64,000 nucleotides of DNA, taken from Roseiarcus fermentans (GTDB taxonomy: Bacteria > Pseudomonadota > Alphaproteobacteria > Rhizobiales > Beijerinckiaceae). Below the pieces are notes generated by a model. That model was not told the DNA's origin. It did no database searches and saw only the letters and a list, made by a program, of their open reading frames with translations. The stretch is from positions 1 to 64,000 of the forward strand of contig NZ_QNRK01000005.1 of the NCBI RefSeq assembly GCF_003315135.1, in the 5' to 3' direction. Within the stretch, counting starts at the first letter, position 1; each line of letters opens with the position of its first letter. Positions 13,503 to 37,806 of the stretch are shown piece by piece. A program made the translations under genes and the position numbers.

Positions 13503-14219
13503 TCAGGTCCCGGTTCGCGCCTCGACCGCGACCGGATAGCGAAGCCAGATCGCCCCTTCACCCAGGGCGGTCAGGAACGCCGCGTGCGCCTCAGCCTCCT
13601 CCGGGCGCAGACGGGCCGCTCGGGCCGGGCGCGGCGCGAGCGGGCGCGAGGTCGGCGCGAACCCGGCTCCGCCGACGTCGCGCGCGTCGTCGAACGACAG
13701 AGACCGCTGCCTCCCTCCCGTCAGTTCGCTGTAGATCTCGACCAGGATCTCCGCGTCCAGCAGCGCCCCGTGCTTCACCCGCTTCGAGCGGTCGATGCGG
13801 TAGCGGTCGCACAAAGCGTCGAGGCTGTTCGATTGCCCCGGGTGTTTCTTGCGCGCCAGAGCCAGCGTGTCGACGACCCGCTCCAGCGCGATCGGCTCAC
13901 GGCCGAGCAAGGCCAGTTCGGCGTTGAGGAAGCGCATATCGAATTCGGCGTTGTGAATGACGATCCGCGCGTCGCCGACGAACGCCAGAAACTCGTCCAC
14001 CACCGCGGCGAAGACGGGCTTGTCCCTGAGATGCTCCGCCGTATGGCCGTGAACCCGCGCCGCTTCCTCGGGAACGTCGCGCTCCGGGTTGATCAGGTGA
14101 TGGAAAACGCGCCCGGACGGCGCCTGGTGGATGATTTCGACGGCGCCGATCTCGAGCAGCCGGTGTCCCTCGGCCGGGCTGAGGCCGGTGGTTTCCGTGT
14201 CGAGCACGATCTCACGCAT
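13503..14219 (-). CDS. dnaQ: DNA polymerase III epsilon subunit (3'-5' proofreading exonuclease)
   Basis: Proofreads for the replicative polymerase. The 238-aa DEDDh exonuclease has Exo I in LDTETTGL with the metal-binding DxE, Exo II around HNAEFDMRFLN and the Exo III segment KHGALLDAEILVEIY with the H and D. The C-terminal tail (about 175-238) would carry the polymerase alpha-binding part. The start at 14219 gives the canonical MREIVLDTETTG; its ATG overlaps the end of coaE by 8 nt. It is last in the minus-strand run ppsR-maf-aroE-coaE-dnaQ leading away from the candidate origin. Confidence 0.96.
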   Translation of the reverse strand: MREIVLDTETTGLSPAEGHRLLEIGAVEIIHQAPSGRVFHHLINPERDVPEEAARVHGHTAEHLRDKPVFAAVVDEFLAFVGDARIVIHNAEFDMRFLNAELALLGREPIALERVVDTLALARKKHPGQSNSLDALCDRYRIDRSKRVKHGALLDAEILVEIYSELTGGRQRSLSFDDARDVGGAGFAPTSRPLAPRPARAARLRPEEAEAHAAFLTALGEGAIWLRYPVAVEARTGT

Positions 14220-14820
14220 GGTCGGTCCTACGTCCTTCCAGACCCGCGACGGCGCGCAGACATTGCGCCACCTGGGCGCGCGTCTTTTCGAGGCTGCCGC
14301 CGGTGTCGATGACGGCATGCGCGCGGCGACGCTTTTCCGAATCGCCCATCTGACGCGCCAGAATCGCATCGAGCTTTTCGTCGGTCATCCCCGTCCGCGC
14401 CAGCGCGCGGGCGCGTTGCGCCGGCGCGGGCGCGCTGACCACGATGACGAGGTCCACCTCCTTGTCGCCGCCGGTCTCGAACAGCAGCGGCACGTCGACG
14501 ATCGCGATCCGGCGCCCATCGCCTGCGGCGCGGGACACGAAACGCTTCCGCATCGCCGCGACGGCCGGATGCACCAGGCCCTCGAGTCGCGCGAGCGCCG
14601 CGGGCTCGTTGAGAACGACCCGCGACAGTCGATCGCGATCGACCCGGCCGTCGACGACAACGCCGGGAAAGGCGCGCCCGATCGTTTCGACGCCGTCGCC
14701 GGCGTAAAAGGCGCGCACCGCGGCGTCGGCGTCGAACACCGGCGCGCCGAAGCCAGCGAACATGGCCGCGACCGTCGACTTGCCCATCGCGATCGAGCCG
14801 GTCAGTCCCGCCACGATCAT
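14212..14820 (-). CDS. coaE: Dephospho-CoA kinase
   Basis: Phosphorylates the 3'-OH of dephospho-CoA, the final step of coenzyme A synthesis. The 202-aa protein starts with MIVAGLTGSIAMGKSTV, whose P-loop is GSIAMGKS, and continues with FDADAAVR, the LVHPAV segment and VDVPLLFETG, all typical of CoaE. Its ATG overlaps the aroE stop (ATGA) and its end overlaps the dnaQ start by 8 nt, so translation is coupled through all three genes. Confidence 0.95.
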   Translation of the reverse strand: MIVAGLTGSIAMGKSTVAAMFAGFGAPVFDADAAVRAFYAGDGVETIGRAFPGVVVDGRVDRDRLSRVVLNEPAALARLEGLVHPAVAAMRKRFVSRAAGDGRRIAIVDVPLLFETGGDKEVDLVIVVSAPAPAQRARALARTGMTDEKLDAILARQMGDSEKRRRAHAVIDTGGSLEKTRAQVAQCLRAVAGLEGRRTDHA

Positions 14821-15674
14821 CGCCCCGCCTCCTGCGCCCGGACGTCCGCCTCGACCAGCGCGCGCAATTCGGGCGTGACCTCCGGCCGGCGCCCGAACCA
14901 TCGTTCGAACGCCGGCGCGGCCTGGTGGAGGAGCATCCCGAGGCCCTCCACGGTCCTCAGGCCGCGGGCGCGCGCCGCCTCGATCAGGGAGGTGCGCAGC
15001 GGAACATAGACGATGTCGGAGACGACCGCGTCCGGCGGCAGGGTTCGCAGGTCGATGGCGAGCGGCGGCTGCCCCGCCATGCCGAGGGTGCTCGTATTCA
15101 CCAGGCAATCGGCGCCCGGAAGGAGCTCGGGAAGATTGTCCCACCCCGCGACGACGACGGGCGCGCCAAAGGCGGCCGACAACGCCTCGGCCCGGCTCCG
15201 CGTTCTGTTGACCAGGACGACGCGCTCGAACCCGCGCGACACGAGGGCATGAACGATTGCGCGCGCGGCGCCGCCGGCGCCGATCACCAGCGCCGAGCGG
15301 CGATCCGCCCAGCCCGGCGCCGCCTCGTCCATGTTGGCCAGAAACCCTGCGACGTCGGTGTTGTCGCCCCACAGCCGCCCGTCCTCGCGCCAGAGCGTGT
15401 TGACGGCGCCCAGCGCCTCGGCGGTCGGCGTCCGGCGATCGCAGGCCGCAAACGCCGCCTCCTTGTGCGGGACCGTGACATTGGACCCGACGAGGCCGTT
15501 CCTGCCGATCTCGGCCGCGAAGGCTGCAAAGGCGCCCGGAGGAACAGGAAAGCGCTCGTACGCGCCCTCGATTCCGAGCCGCTCCAGCCAGAACCCATGG
15601 ATGAGCGGCGAGCGCGAATGGGCGACGGGCCATCCCGCCACTCCGGCGCGAACGCGGGCGCTGGGCTGCGTCAT
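14817..15674 (-). CDS. aroE: Shikimate dehydrogenase
   Basis: NADPH-dependent reduction of 3-dehydroshikimate in the aromatic amino acid pathway. The 285-aa protein has the shikimate site SRSPLIHGFWL (about 20-30), the catalytic lysine in NVTVPHKEAAF, the aspartate in GDNTDVAGF and the nucleotide loop GAGGAARAI. It overlaps both maf (upstream) and coaE (downstream) by ATGA. The chorismate mutase, hisC and tyrC genes on the other side of the origin use later products of the same pathway but are a separate transcript. Confidence 0.95.
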   Translation of the reverse strand: MTQPSARVRAGVAGWPVAHSRSPLIHGFWLERLGIEGAYERFPVPPGAFAAFAAEIGRNGLVGSNVTVPHKEAAFAACDRRTPTAEALGAVNTLWREDGRLWGDNTDVAGFLANMDEAAPGWADRRSALVIGAGGAARAIVHALVSRGFERVVLVNRTRSRAEALSAAFGAPVVVAGWDNLPELLPGADCLVNTSTLGMAGQPPLAIDLRTLPPDAVVSDIVYVPLRTSLIEAARARGLRTVEGLGMLLHQAAPAFERWFGRRPEVTPELRALVEADVRAQEAGR

Positions 15675-16321
15675 AGCGAAAGCAGTCCTTCAGCCCGCGC
15701 CCAGGCGAGCAGCGCGAGCAGCGGCAGCCCCAGGATGGTGAAGTGATCGCCGCGGATGCGCTCGAACAGGTGCGCGCCCAGCGCTTCGAGTTGATAGACG
15801 CCGACGCTCGACAGGACCGCGGGTCCGGCGAGATCGAGGTAGCGCCCGATCGTCTCGTCATCGAGCGGACGCATGTCGAGTTCGGCCGTGTCCTCGGTGA
15901 CGAGAAGCGCCGCGCCGCCGCGGGCGACGCAGACGGCGGAAGTCAGCCGGTGGGTGCGTCCGGCGAGCGCGGCGAGCGACTGCGCCGCCTCGCGTCGGTC
16001 GCGCGCCTTGTGGAGGAGGCGGCCCTCGACGGTCAGGGTCTGGTCGGCGCCGATGCACCAGGCGTCCGGCCGGGCCGCGCTGACGGCCAGGGCCTTGGCG
16101 CGGGCGAGGGCGCAGGCCAGATCGCCGACCGCGCCGCCGGCGGCGAAATGCCGCGCTTCCTCGGCGCGCTCGTCGACGTCGGGGGCGACGGATTCGACCG
16201 TCAGCCCGCTGGCGGCGAGCAGCGCAAGCCGGCTCGCGCTCCGCGAAGCGAGGACCAGAGGCGCGCGTCCTGTCCACAGGGCCGGCTTGGGGGTGCGGAC
16301 GTCGCCGGAGGCGTCAGCCAT
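15671..16321 (-). CDS. maf: Maf family nucleoside triphosphate pyrophosphatase
   Basis: Maf proteins hydrolyse non-canonical or methylated NTPs, and some members affect septum formation. The 216-aa protein has the Maf N-terminal motif [16 protein letters not shown] (about 22-37) and the conserved GADQTL and KARDRREA segments of the active site. The chosen ATG at 16321 overlaps the end of ppsR by 8 nt, and the maf stop overlaps aroE by ATGA. Substrate choice cannot be read from sequence here. Confidence 0.92.
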
Positions 16322-17147
16322 GGGTGATGAACTTGAGCCGGTGGGCGCGGTAGAGATCGAGGATGGCGGCGGCGGTTTCCTCGATCGACCGGCGCGACAC
16401 GTCGATGACCGGCCAGCTCCTGTCGGCGAACAGACGCCGAGAGGCGGCGATCTCCTCCGCGACCGCGACCCGGTCGACATATTCGCTCTGCGCGTCGGCG
16501 TTGAGCGACAACAGGCGGTTCTGACGGATCTGGACGATCCGGTCGGCCGAGGCCACCAGACCGACGATCAGCGGGTGGCGCAGGTGCACGAGCCCGCTCG
16601 GCAGCGGGACGTGCGGCACGAGCGGAATGTTGGCGGTCTTGTAGCCGCGGTTGGCGAGGTAGATGCTCGTCGGCGTCTTCGAGGTGCGGCTGACCCCGAC
16701 GAGGACGATGTCGGCATGCTCGAGATTTTCCGGCAGCTGGCCGTCGTCGCTCATCATCGTGAAATTCAGGGCGTCGATGCGCTTGAAATAGTCCGCGTTC
16801 AGCATGTGCTGCGCGCCGGCGCGCGGGGTCGAGTTCTGCCCGAGATAGGATTTGAACAGGTTCAGGATCGGCCCCAGGACGCTGAGGCAGGGCGAGCCGA
16901 AGGTCTCGCAGCTCTCCTCGAGCCGCCGCGACAGATTTGCGTCGACCAGGGTGAACAAGACGATGCCCGGCGCGTTCTCGATTTCCGCAATGACGCGATC
17001 GAGCTGCTCGGGCGTCCGCACCAGAGGATAGACGTGCTCGATGGAGGCGACGCCCTGGTATTGGGCGGACGCGGCCCGCGACGCGGCGATCAGGGTCTCG
17101 CCCGTCGAATCGGACACGAGATGGAGGTGAAAATAGCTGCGGCCCAA
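16314..17147 (-). CDS. ppsR: Pyruvate, phosphate dikinase regulatory protein (DUF299)
   Basis: A bifunctional kinase/pyrophosphorylase that switches pyruvate, phosphate dikinase (or PEP synthase) by ADP-dependent phosphorylation and Pi-dependent removal. The 277-aa protein has the N-terminal [13 protein letters not shown] motif and the P-loop-like [11 protein letters not shown] (about 152-162). The start codon is TTG with GGGGTGA upstream. This gene is the homologue of the DUF299 gene that borders the chromosomal origin in Caulobacter and other alphaproteobacteria. Its promoter must lie in the adjoining 462-bp non-coding segment. Confidence 0.93.
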
Positions 17148-17609
17148 GGTCGATCACCCCCGAGAATTCCCGTCGGTTATAGTCGGTGAATAGCGCTGTG
17201 GACAGGGCGGGACAGGCGCTGTCCCCCGCCAAGAATCAGCGGCGGCCCCGGGATCGCCGCCGCGTTTTCTCCCCAGGATGGAAATCGTGGACAATCGGTA
17301 AACGGAATCGGCCGGCTCCGGTGAATTCCGGGGATAAGCCGGCGCCCGCTCTCCATCCCACGGGCAACGGCAAGAAATCCTTAACGAAGCGTTAAGGCGA
17401 TACGCCGGACGACGGCGGCGCAAGAGCGGCGGCGGCGCCGCTTTCAGGGGACGAACGAGGCGCAATCCGGAATCTCGGCTACGGACACCCTAGAAAAGAA
17501 ATCAGACTCCAGATTCCATCTTTCCTGTCTTGCCTCCCGTCGAGGCCTTGCACAGCTCGCCGAAGCCCCCTATTCGCGGTGGCCTCCCTGACGAACTCTC
17601 CCGGAGCCA
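17148..17609. other. Candidate chromosomal replication origin (oriC)
   Basis: A 462-bp segment without a gene between divergent ppsR and hemJ. It holds three DnaA-box-like 9-mers, each two mismatches from TGTGGATAA: TGTGGACAG (17197-17205), CGTGGACAA (17286-17294) and CGGGGATAA (17329-17337). It also has a perfect CtrA box (17381-17395) and five GANTC methylation sites (17233, 17305, 17470, 17505, 17512), well above what a GC-rich stretch should carry. In Caulobacter the origin lies between hemE and the ppsR homologue; here hemE is absent and hemJ takes its place. The segment 17488-17530 is the most AT-rich part and could be an unwinding region. Function is inferred from context and motifs. 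Confidence 0.7.
17379..17397. promoter_or_regulatory. CtrA box in candidate oriC
   Basis: TTAA (17381-17384), CGAAGCG, TTAA (17392-17395) is a perfect CtrA full site. It is embedded in a perfect palindrome with 8-bp arms, CCTTAACG and CGTTAAGG, around AAG. Phosphorylated CtrA blocks initiation by binding such sites in the Caulobacter origin. Here the site could also act on the divergent ppsR and hemJ promoters. Confidence 0.75.
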
Positions 17610-18038
17610 ATGGACACGTACCTCTGGGTCAAGGCCCTGCACATCATCGCGGTGATCGCCTGGATGGCGGGGATCCTCTATCTCCCCAGGCTGTTCGTGT
17701 ACCACACGGAGACGCCGAAGGGCTCGCAGGCCTCCGAACTGTTCAAGATCATGGAGCGGCGGCTTCTCAAGGCGATCATGAACCCGTCGATGATCGTGGT
17801 CTTCGTCACCGGACCGCTGCTCGCCTGGTGGGGCGGCTACTGGACGGCGCCCTGGCTGCACGTCAAGATCGCGCTGGCGCTCGCAATCGCGGCGGTTCAC
17901 GGCTACCTGTCGCGGCGCCTGAAGCTGTTCGCACGGGACGCCAACGACCGTCCGGGGGTTTTCTACCGGGTGCTCAACGAGGTTCCGACGATCCTGATGA
18001 TTTTGATCGTCCTGCTGGTCGTCCTGAAACCGTTCTGA
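17610..18038 (+). CDS. hemJ: Protoporphyrinogen IX oxidase HemJ
   Basis: An inner-membrane enzyme that oxidises protoporphyrinogen IX to protoporphyrin IX in heme synthesis. The 142-aa protein has four predicted membrane helices and the UPF0093/HemJ signature: H11 in KALHIIAVIAWMAG, the LPRLFVYH segment ending in H32, and the conserved basic region around HVKIALALAIAAVHGYLSRR. It is the first gene on the rho side of the candidate origin. In many relatives hemE and hemH lie here as well; neither is present. It is separated from rho by 222 bp that contains a promoter. Confidence 0.92.
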   Translation: MDTYLWVKALHIIAVIAWMAGILYLPRLFVYHTETPKGSQASELFKIMERRLLKAIMNPSMIVVFVTGPLLAWWGGYWTAPWLHVKIALALAIAAVHGYLSRRLKLFARDANDRPGVFYRVLNEVPTILMILIVLLVVLKPF

Positions 18039-18096: not shown

Positions 18097-18260
18097 AGGC
18101 TCGCTTATCATCAACGCGCCTCACTCATGGCCGCGGACCCCAGGGTTTGTCCGGCCAGGGCGGCCCAATTAGGCCGCGGACCCTCCGTAGAGCGCTTTCC
18201 ACCCTCCTCTCATGTTGCGACGGAAGGCCTCGGGCCGACCGTCCGAGGCAAAGGTCCCCG

Positions 18261-19526
<1,266 letters not shown>

Positions 19527-33454: not shown

Positions 33455-33470
33455 TGTTTCACGTGAAACA
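33455..33470. other. parS: parS centromere site 1
   Basis: TGTTTCACGTGAAACA is a perfect match to the universal ParB binding site. It lies in the 19-bp gap between mnmE and mnmG and runs over the GTG start codon of mnmG (33463). ParB (36919-37806) should load here. Confidence 0.95.
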
Positions 33471-35352
33471 CCAGGCGGTCCTGCAACGCTTCGACGTCGT
33501 CGTGATCGGCGGCGGCCACGCCGGCTGCGAGGCGGCCGCGGCGGCGGCCCGCTGCGGCGCCGCGACCGCCCTCGTCACCCATTCGGCGGCGAGGATCGGC
33601 GAGATGTCGTGCAATCCGGCGATCGGCGGCATCGGCAAGGGCCACCTCGTGCGCGAGATCGACGCCCTCGACGGCCTGATGGGCCGCGCCGCCGATGCGG
33701 CCGGCCTGCAGTTCCGCGTCCTCAATCGTCGCAAGGGACCGGCCGTCCAGGGGCCTCGCGCGCAGGCCGACCGGGCGCTCTACCGTCGCGCCATGCGTGC
33801 GCTGGTCGCCGCGACGCCCGGCCTCGCCGTGATCGAAGGCGAGGCCTCGGCGATCCGGTCGGCGAACGGCGCGGTCGTCGGCGTCGATCTCGCCGATGGG
33901 CGGACGCTGTCGTGTCGCTGCGCCGTGCTGACGACCGGCACCTTCCTTCGCGGCATGATCCACCTCGGCGAAGTTCGCACCCCGGCCGGCCGCTTCGGCG
34001 ATCCGCCCTCGGTGTCGCTGGCGCTCAGCCTCGAACGGGCGGGGTTCGCCTTCGGGCGGCTGAAGACTGGAACGCCGCCGCGTCTCGACGGTCGGACGAT
34101 CGATTGGGCGGCGCTGGAGATTCAGCACGGCGACGACCCGCCGGAGTTCTTTTCCGCCGACACGAGGGCGGTCGCGGCCCCGCAGATCCCCTGCCACATC
34201 ACTCGCACGACCGCGGAGACGCACGCCGTCATCCGCGCCGACTCGCGCCGCTCGGCCGTCTATTCGGGCGCGCTGTCCGGCCGCGGGCCGCGCTATTGCC
34301 CGTCGATCGAGGACAAGGTGGTCCGCTTCGCCGATCGCGACAGTCACCAGATCTTCCTCGAGCCGGAGGGCTTCGACGATCCGACCGTCTATCCCAACGG
34401 CGTCTCGACCTCGCTGCCGGCCGAGACGCAGCGGGCGCTGATCGCGACCATCCCGGGGCTCGAGCGGACGCGGATCGTCCGGCCGGGCTATGCGATCGAA
34501 TACGATTACGTCGACCCGCGCGGCCTGGAAGCGACGCTGGAGGCGCGCCGCTTCCGCGGGTTATTCCTGGCGGGCCAGATCAACGGCACCACCGGCTACG
34601 AGGAGGCGGCGGCGCAGGGGCTCGCGGCCGGGATCAATGCGGCGCGGGCGGCCGGCGGCCTCGACCCCGCCACCTTCGACCGCGCCGATTCCTATCTCGG
34701 GGTGATGATCGACGACCTGACCACCCGGGGCGTCAGCGAGCCCTACCGGATGTTCACCTCGCGCGCCGAGTTCCGGCTGTCGCTGCGCGCCGACAACGCC
34801 GACGAGCGCCTGACCGGCCGGGGCATCGCGCTCGGCTGCGTCGGCCCGGACCGCAGTCGGCTCTACCGCGACGCCCAGGCGCAGCTCTCCGCTGCGCGCG
34901 CGCTGCTCGCGGGCGCGACGGCGTCGCCTGCGACCCTCGAGACGTTCGGCGTCCTGGTCAACGCGGACGGCGTCCGGCGGACGGCGTTCGAACTCGCGGC
35001 GCAGCCGCAGTTTCCGCTCTCGGCGCTGGCGCGGGTGTGGCCGGAGATCGCGACCATCCCGCGCGCGCTCGTGCCGCGACTCGAAGCCGACGCCAAATAT
35101 GCGGTCTATGTCGAACGGCAGGCGGAGGACGTGGCGCGCCACCGTCGCGACGATGCGCTGCTGCTGCCCGACAGCCTCGACTACGACGACCTGCCCGGGT
35201 TGTCGCGCGAGATGCGACAGAAGTTTTCCGCCGTACGACCGCGCAGCCTCGGTCAGGCGGGGCGAATCGAAGGCGTCACCCCGGCGGCGCTCGCGGTGGT
35301 GTCCGCGCACGCCCGGCGGGCGAGAGCCGCGGAGGTTCGGACATCGACGTGA
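33463..35352 (+). CDS. mnmG: tRNA uridine-5-carboxymethylaminomethyl modification enzyme MnmG
   Basis: FAD-containing partner of MnmE. The 629-aa protein begins with the dinucleotide-binding motif [20 protein letters not shown] (about 10-29). It has [22 protein letters not shown] with the conserved cysteine, [13 protein letters not shown], and the C-terminal MnmE- and tRNA-binding helical region. The GTG start codon lies inside parS site 1, an unusual double use of sequence; no later start preserves the FAD motif as well. It overlaps rsmG by GTGA. Confidence 0.95.
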
Positions 35353-36035: not shown

Positions 36036-36884
36036 ATGGCTGCCGTCATTCCACCCGATGAAGGCGACGCGAAGCGCGCGGCGAAGCCGCGCGTTCTCGT
36101 CATGGCCAACCAAAAGGGCGGCGTCGGGAAGACCACCACCGCCATCAATCTCGGCACGGCGCTGGCCGCCATCGGCGAGCGCGTGCTGATCATCGACCTC
36201 GATCCCCAGGGCAACGCCTCGACCGGGCTCGGAATCGATCGCAAGGCCCGCGCGACCTCGAGCTACGACGCCCTGATCGGCGAACGGAGCCTCAGCGAGG
36301 TGATTACGCCGACGGCGGTGCCGCGGCTCAGCATCGCGCCCTCGACCATGGATCTGCTCGGAGTCGAACTGGAAATCGCCGGCGAGAGCGATCGGTCCTA
36401 CAAGCTGCGCAAGGCGCTGCTGGCGTTCTTCGAATCAGACCGGACCCGTCCGGACCCGGTCACCTACGTTCTCGTCGACTGTCCGCCGTCATTGAACCTG
36501 CTCACGATCAACGCGCTGGCGGCCGCCGACGCGGTCGTCGTGCCGCTGCAGTGCGAATTCTTCGCGCTCGAGGGGCTGTCCCAGCTTTTGACCACCGTCG
36601 ATCAGGTGCGGCGGACGCTCAATCCCGCGCTGACCATCCACGGCGTCGTGCTGACGATGTTCGATCCGCGCAACAGCCTCGCGGGCCAGGTGGTGGCGGA
36701 CGTGCGCGCCCACATGGGGGACAAGGTCTACGACACGGTGATCCCGCGCAATGTCCGGATCTCCGAGGCGCCCTCGCACGGCAAGCCGGCGCTGCTCTAC
36801 GACCTGCGCTGCGCCGGCAGTCAGGCCTATCTCAAGCTCGCCTCGGAAGTGATTCAACGCGAAGGCCGCTGGCGGCCCGCGTGA
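36036..36884 (+). CDS. parA: Chromosome partitioning ATPase ParA
   Basis: Walker-type ATPase that moves ParB-bound origins to the poles. The 282-aa protein has the deviant Walker A motif NQKGGVGKTTTAINLG (about 25-40), LIIDLDPQGNASTGLG, the Walker B region VLVDCPPSLNLLT and the FFALEGLSQLL segment of the Soj/ParA family. The first 18 residues are variable. It starts 4 nt after rsmG and 34 bp before parB, forming a tight operon. Confidence 0.96.
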   Translation: MAAVIPPDEGDAKRAAKPRVLVMANQKGGVGKTTTAINLGTALAAIGERVLIIDLDPQGNASTGLGIDRKARATSSYDALIGERSLSEVITPTAVPRLSIAPSTMDLLGVELEIAGESDRSYKLRKALLAFFESDRTRPDPVTYVLVDCPPSLNLLTINALAAADAVVVPLQCEFFALEGLSQLLTTVDQVRRTLNPALTIHGVVLTMFDPRNSLAGQVVADVRAHMGDKVYDTVIPRNVRISEAPSHGKPALLYDLRCAGSQAYLKLASEVIQREGRWRPA

Positions 36885-36918
36885 GCGGGCGGTCCGGCTG
36901 AACGGGAGCAAGGACAGC

Positions 36919-37806
36919 ATGGCCGAGGATCCTGGCCGAACGGAACACAGGCCGCGCCTCGGGCGCGGGCTCGCCGCGCTTCTCGGGGCGTCCCAGGACG
37001 ATGTCGAGGCGCCCGTCGCCCGCGGCGCGCGCAAGGCGCCGATTGAATTTCTGAGGCCCAATCCGCACAACCCGCGCAAACGCTTCGACGAGACGGAGCT
37101 CGACGAACTCGCCGCGTCGATCAGGGAGCGCGGCGTCATCCAGCCGATCCTCGTGCGCGCCATTCCGCGCGTCGCCGACGCCTACGAGATCGTCGCCGGC
37201 GAGCGGCGCTGGCGCGCGGCGCAGCGCGCCGGCCTGCACGAGGCGCCGATCGTGGTGATCGAGGCGAGCGACCGCGAGGCGCTCGAGATCGCGATCATCG
37301 AGAACGTGCAGCGCGCCGACCTCAACCCCCTCGAGGAGGCCGCCGGCTACGCCCAGCTCGGCGCCGAGCACGGCTACGCCCACGCCGACATCGCGCGGGT
37401 GGTCGGCAAGAGCCGCAGCCACATCGCCAACACGCTGCGGCTCGTCAATCTGCCCGAGCACAGCCGGAGGCTGCTCGCCGAGGGCAAGATTTCCGCCGGC
37501 CACGCCCGCGCCCTGCTGGCCGTTCCGCACCCGGACGCGACCGCCGACCGGATCGTTTCCGAAGGCCTCACCGTGCGCGACATCGAGCGCCTCGGCGAAA
37601 ACGCCGGCAAGACCGCGCGTCCGCGGAAGCCCGCTGCGACAATCGACGCCGACACGCTCGCTCTTCAGGACCGGCTCGGCCTGGCGCTCGGCGCCAAGGT
37701 GACGATCCGCCACGCCGGCGAGAGCGGCGAGATCCGCATCGCCTTCCGCGATTTCGAGCAGCTCGACGAATTCTGCCGGCGGCTCTCCCAGCCGGCGGAG
37801 CGATAG
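36919..37806 (+). CDS. parB: Chromosome partitioning protein ParB (CTPase clamp)
   Basis: Loads at parS and spreads as a CTP-dependent clamp. The 295-aa protein has an N-terminal ParA-stimulating peptide (RPRLGRGLAALLG, about 14-26), the CTP-binding fold with NPRKRF and GERRWRAAQRAGL, a helix-turn-helix (HADIARVVGKSRSHIANTLRLV, about 155-176) and a C-terminal dimer domain after a linker. Cognate sites are the two parS sequences 1.5-3.5 kb upstream. Confidence 0.96.
   Translation: MAEDPGRTEHRPRLGRGLAALLGASQDDVEAPVARGARKAPIEFLRPNPHNPRKRFDETELDELAASIRERGVIQPILVRAIPRVADAYEIVAGERRWRAAQRAGLHEAPIVVIEASDREALEIAIIENVQRADLNPLEEAAGYAQLGAEHGYAHADIARVVGKSRSHIANTLRLVNLPEHSRRLLAEGKISAGHARALLAVPHPDATADRIVSEGLTVRDIERLGENAGKTARPRKPAATIDADTLALQDRLGLALGAKVTIRHAGESGEIRIAFRDFEQLDEFCRRLSQPAER

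Follow-up and report, generated by a model that had tools for sequence, protein, structure and literature searches.

The candidate origin and its surroundings

The 462-bp intergenic gap between ppsR and hemJ is very probably the ordinary chromosomal origin of replication (oriC) of this Roseiarcus-related soil alphaproteobacterium. This reading follows from the proximity of parS, from a switch in GC skew sampled in related genomes and from the conservation of the gap in position and motif; the genes for CtrA and a RAMA-domain protein lend it further support. As a whole, the data are best explained, and in our view with little doubt, by an oriC that works through DnaA, CtrA, GANTC sites and ParB and whose flanking hemE was displaced by a second copy. 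That the proteins bind their sites and that the gap is active as an origin in this strain is inferred.

The window analysed here (64,000 nucleotides) is the first 64 kb of the 222-kb contig C5, which extends merely 17 kb to the left of the gap. The draft genome measures 6.8 Mb in 90 contigs and is 99% complete. PpsR is 94% identical to that of an uncultured Roseiarcus (L014), a near relative. The locus is organised as follows:

13503–16330, minus strand: dnaQ-coaE-aroE-maf block, beyond ppsR (HMM matches)
16314–17147, minus strand: ppsR (COG1806/DUF299, RP001-type; PF03618), the conserved left flank
17148–17609, no strand: candidate oriC, the ppsR-hemJ intergenic gap (motifs, conservation; in relatives GC skew switches at the sample that contains the orthologous gap)
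17610–18038, plus strand: hemJ (TIGR00701), right flank, in the usual position of hemE
18264–19526, plus strand: rho (TIGR00767)

The earlier note had read dnaQ-coaE-aroE-maf-ppsR on one side and rho on the other, and each of these genes is backed by an HMM match; in the block, maf matched PF02545, aroE shikimate dehydrogenase domains, coaE TIGR00152 and dnaQ TIGR01406. The remodelling of the flank that it described, with hemJ instead of hemE at the gap, is real: the sole hemE match in the genome lies on contig C26.

Motifs within the gap

The following motifs were found in the gap:

17197–17205, minus strand: DnaA-type box CTGTCCACA, the best in the gap, two mismatches to TTATCCACA, kept in the genus
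17233–17516, no strand: span of five GANTC (CcrM-type) sites, at 17233, 17305, 17470, 17505 and 17512
17267–17275, plus strand: weak DnaA-like 9-mer TTCTCCCCA, two mismatches to TTATCCACA
17286–17294, minus strand: DnaA-like 9-mer TTGTCCACG, two mismatches to TTATCCACA
17329–17337, minus strand: DnaA-like 9-mer TTATCCCCG, two mismatches to TTATCCACA, with a GGGGA core that is aligned in all nine gaps of the genus
17381–17395, no strand: CtrA box TTAA-N7-TTAA, single exact copy

Chance occurrence was estimated from 4000 sequences of a Markov model built on the gap and from 1441 overlapping 462-bp segments of the 222-kb contig, the gap included. The perfect palindromic CtrA box of the earlier note, with inverted 8-bp arms on both sides of a 3-bp centre, was found above chance (P 0.0022 in the Markov model; 0.83% of the contig segments reach the same count). 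A degenerate cluster of DnaA-like 9-mers is likewise present, although it holds four members and not the three first counted, and at least four are rarely reached (P 0.0008; 0.14% of the segments). All five GANTC sites that had been claimed were located. At least five occur with P 0.15 in the Markov model and in 0.49% of the segments, so their number is unusual for the contig and not for the composition of the gap; it was therefore dropped as evidence for an origin. No 9-mer in the gap lies within one mismatch of TTATCCACA. TGATCCACA, tried as an alternative consensus, was rejected (one match in the gap, no enrichment). A consensus search for the IHF site WATCAN5WTR, which a diverged site could escape, gave no match in the gap on either strand, and the AT-richest 50-mer of the gap is 56% AT.

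CtrA is encoded in the genome, with 85% identity to the CtrA query and a score that passes the NCBIfam CtrA cut-off. The single RAMA-domain protein would be CcrM, judging from its domain, which among 14 control genomes was matched in Caulobacter only. DnaA carries GGRDHTTVLHA, which we take to be the usual DnaA box-reading signature, and its domains score well above the cut-offs. With these factors, DnaA-ATP would assemble on the few weak boxes, the best of them at 17197, and open the gap; phosphorylated CtrA bound at 17381 would block opening outside S phase; GANTC methylation of the CcrM type would mark the replication state; and ParB on parS, 16–18 kb away, would segregate the new origins.

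Elsewhere in the window, a minus-strand ORF of 64 aa (1525–1719) resembles a Flp/Fap pilin by eye. Upstream of this ORF, in the stretch up to 1808, an exact CtrA box (1786) and a DnaA-like 9-mer with one mismatch (1800) may mark a pilin promoter under CtrA control.

Perfect boxes are rare in this genome, with 14 copies of TTATNCACA against 32 of the reversed control. Two other places were considered as origin and rejected. On contig C7 the lone pair of TTATNCACA within 1 kb lies inside an ORF resembling a methyltransferase by eye; the dnaA contig C67 has a single perfect box and no CtrA box, and no 400 bp of it contain more than three 9-mers that come within two mismatches.

Conservation of the gap in genus and family

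A ppsR match was present in 9 of the 11 genomes of the genus, which gave a set of nine gaps (our own and those of eight congeners). CTGTCCACA is found 48–63 bp from ppsR in eight of these, our own included, and TTGTCCACA in the ninth. The motif has been retained among congeners in which the surrounding gap sequence diverged; apart from it, no 9-mer is common to more than five of the nine gaps. The CtrA box is exact in six gaps and diverged in the remaining three. TTCTCCCCA at 17267 is absent at the equivalent place in the other eight.

At the family level 63 gaps were compared, being 75 minus 12 (nine repeat loci, L062 with its 1105-bp gap, and L051 and L089, for which no neighbour was found). 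An exact CtrA box was present in 48, a DnaA box within one mismatch in 42, a perfect box in 3, and a TGTGGA[CT]A core at most 120 bp from ppsR in 41, counts in which 23 gaps form a redundant Methylobacterium-type block and further overlap among loci is possible. The other 40 gaps hold 1 perfect box, 19 boxes within one mismatch and 25 CtrA boxes. Weak DnaA boxes are normal in Beijerinckiaceae origin gaps, and the view that the poor boxes are unusual was wrong, given the three perfect boxes in the family and the retention of CTGTCCACA at one place in eight of the nine gaps of the genus. DnaA-like sites also persist in the gap whether its neighbour is hemE, hemJ or rho. The last case is G109, which has neither hemE nor hemJ at this place: ppsR and rho are separated by a gap of 527 bp that lacks an exact CtrA box and contains eight DnaA-like 9-mers with up to two mismatches.

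Two observations concern ppsR itself. In G094, a genome of g28 (L172, around 8167), an ORF resembling an M24 peptidase by eye abuts ppsR, and the gap seems to have left ppsR. A ppsR match is missing in 16 of the 149 family genomes, among them all sampled members of genus codes g15 and g37 and the congener G003; hemE was matched in every one of the 16.

Position of parS

The partition genes and sites were located to the right of the gap:

33455–33470, no strand: parS, perfect 16-mer, one of two sites in the draft genome
35444–35459, no strand: parS, perfect 16-mer, the other of the two sites
36036–37806, plus strand: parA and parB

The two sites sit in an mnmE-mnmG-parA-parB cluster, 16–18 kb from the gap. 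With up to two mismatches allowed, no others were found anywhere in the draft genome, and the reversed control gave none. Eight family genomes consist of one or two contigs. In seven of them the nearest parS (exact or with one mismatch) is on the hemE side of ppsR, at a distance of 7–19 kb; in the eighth, G074, it lies 55 kb off, on the opposite side of ppsR. Among congeners, G004 has parS on the hemJ side, 26 kb away, and in G006 and G010 it is on a separate contig from ppsR. G016 has an additional two-mismatch parS 0.24 Mb away, and the reversed parS control had one match each in G016 and G006.

GC skew and the probable location of the origin

Skew was sampled in three near-complete relatives, G016, G041 and G122, each represented by 20 stretches that were 20 kb long. 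Since the resolution is about 5% of the chromosome, the sampled skew places a region and not the gap. In G016 the best switch fell at the ppsR-hemE sample (right mean +0.015, left −0.024). In G041, where sampling covered contig C1 only, the means were +0.017 and −0.019, and the next sample was marginally better than the ppsR-hemE sample (contrast 0.03592 versus 0.03588). The best split in G122 was at the ppsR-hemE sample but weak (+0.009 and −0.009), both halves of its central 20-kb stretch carry the sign opposite to expectation, and sampling assumed a chromosome of 3.75 Mb where the true size is 3.82 Mb.

On our own contig C5, where the skew check proposed by the earlier note was made, no clear switch was seen at the gap, whether in the whole sequence, coding third positions or non-coding sequence, and the result does not decide. 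The cumulative minimum of the contig is at 183792 and that of its non-coding sequence at 18141, near the gap; within the window the minimum is at 15596 and the maximum at 33641, beside parS. In the congener G004 the whole cumulative minimum of the contig (52137) is 0.7 kb from its gap and the non-coding minimum (90441) is far from it. For comparison, PMC3794950 reports that Methylocystis SC2 shows no clear skew inversion; there oriC was placed with Ori-Finder, one mismatch being allowed, on three boxes.

Promoters are also regulated by CtrA and DnaA. The gap could accordingly be just a divergent promoter of ppsR and hemJ under their control, with replication starting elsewhere, for example at mnmG-parAB (33–37 kb), and the skew peak of the window next to parS and the second pair of CtrA and DnaA-like sites, ahead of the pilin-like ORF, would agree with that. 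We consider this very unlikely: skew maxima do not mark origins, the gap with its DnaA-like sites persists beside any of three neighbours, and the switch in relatives is at the ppsR-hemE sample, though its resolution alone cannot separate 17 kb from 33 kb. It is more improbable still, and hardly credible, that the origin has left the gap in this lineage and that the motifs are remnants. The skew of our own genome, which does not point to the gap, and boxes that are at best two mismatches off speak for such a departure; against it, the motif is kept among congeners in otherwise diverged gaps, parS remains near, and an exact search found no denser cluster of perfect boxes elsewhere.

Probable displacement and loss of hemE

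The commonest order in the family is ppsR-gap-hemE-hemJ-rho, and hemE lies less than 3 kb from ppsR in 120 of the 132 family genomes in which ppsR matched in full (133 with G099, which has partial ppsR matches and was excluded). Of the 12 exceptions, four belong to this genus, with our own among them, four to g28, three to g23 and one to g34. In the genus only the congener G006 keeps the order ppsR-gap-hemE-hemJ, the remaining eight gaps being bordered by hemJ. Our hemE is part of a hemA-glutamine amidotransferase-hemE-hemF cluster. It also lies beside hemF in G009, G010, G003, G004 and G032, while G043 has a hemA match and no hemF match near it; hemE was not located in G001, G002, G005 and G007, four congeners with hemJ at the gap. 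An origin beside hemE at another locus, which the earlier note had named as the outcome that would speak against its reading, was not found: hemE is in a hem-gene cluster and parS is near the ppsR gap.

In a tree of HemE (50 rows) our protein and those of G009, G010, G003 and G004 group with G043 and G032 of other genera (support 98/91), a clade that excludes the origin copy of the congener G006. Constraining the HemE of the genus to one clade lowers the log-likelihood by 49 units (AU p 0.026, 49 rows). G131 has two copies of hemE, one at the origin and a second that falls with the relocated copy of G151. The second hemE lineage of these two genomes (L102, L096) is distinct from that of the Roseiarcus group.

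From the HemE phylogeny and the two-copy state of G131, displacement followed by loss is the best reading: hemE at the origin probably gave way to a second copy of another HemE lineage and was then lost, a reading that leans on the AU p of 0.026 and on a single congener, G006, whose draft genome is 2% contaminated. The ancestral right flank would have been hemE-hemJ-rho; a second hemE of the other lineage, in a hemA-hemE-hemF cluster, would have taken over, upon which the origin copy would have been lost and hemJ would have come to border the gap. A simple translocation of hemE, with no displacement by a second copy, would account for the single hemE in the genome and sits with an AU p of just 0.026; it is nevertheless unlikely, as five of the genomes in the genus have a HemE that joins G043 and G032 and not the origin copy of G006, and as G131 provides an intermediate state. 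Extending displacement and loss to the family, we lean slightly towards repeated loss of the origin-borne hemE in Beijerinckiaceae (Roseiarcus group, g23, g34 and g28), at least partly once a second hemE lineage had been acquired in a hem-gene cluster; the ancient coupling of heme synthesis to gene dosage at the origin would then be dispensable and replaceable.

hemE is an indicator gene for origin prediction, named for Ori-Finder in the part of PMC3794950 available. In this clade such a rule would mislead, and ppsR together with parS points to the likely right place. That the gap and its DnaA-type motif were kept while a neighbouring gene was lost separates what an origin needs from its mere companions.

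Comparison with known origins

The Cori of Caulobacter crescentus lies between hemE and COG1806, is listed with 404 bp and has five CtrA sites, according to the portion of PMC1914354 at hand. As far as described there, it resembles the 462-bp gap in its place beside COG1806 (ppsR) and in its TTAA-N7-TTAA and DnaA-type boxes, and CtrA and a RAMA-domain protein also occur in this genome; it differs in that here hemE is missing from the flank, one exact CtrA box stands against five sites, and neither an IHF consensus match nor a DnaA box within one mismatch is present. Among the Cori-type features seen here are the ppsR flank, the CtrA box and the nearby parS and parAB, the hemE flank being absent. 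The other Beijerinckiaceae oriC loci share the gap, the left flank and, in most, similar motif positions, and differ in retaining hemE between gap and hemJ.

In the excerpted text of PMC1914354, the predicted Wolbachia ori has COG1253 and hemE as flanks, COG1806 being gone. It is alike in that the usual flank pair was broken by rearrangement, and is the mirror case: there COG1806 left and hemE stayed, here hemE left and ppsR stayed. A blunt literature search ('hemE' also matches 'heme'), including the accessible parts of PMC1914354, PMC3794950 and PMC5929573, found no description of hemE loss with ppsR kept for this family. Breakage of the flank is already known, and the loss of hemE with ppsR kept is a case of an ordinary oriC with a lineage-specific flank.
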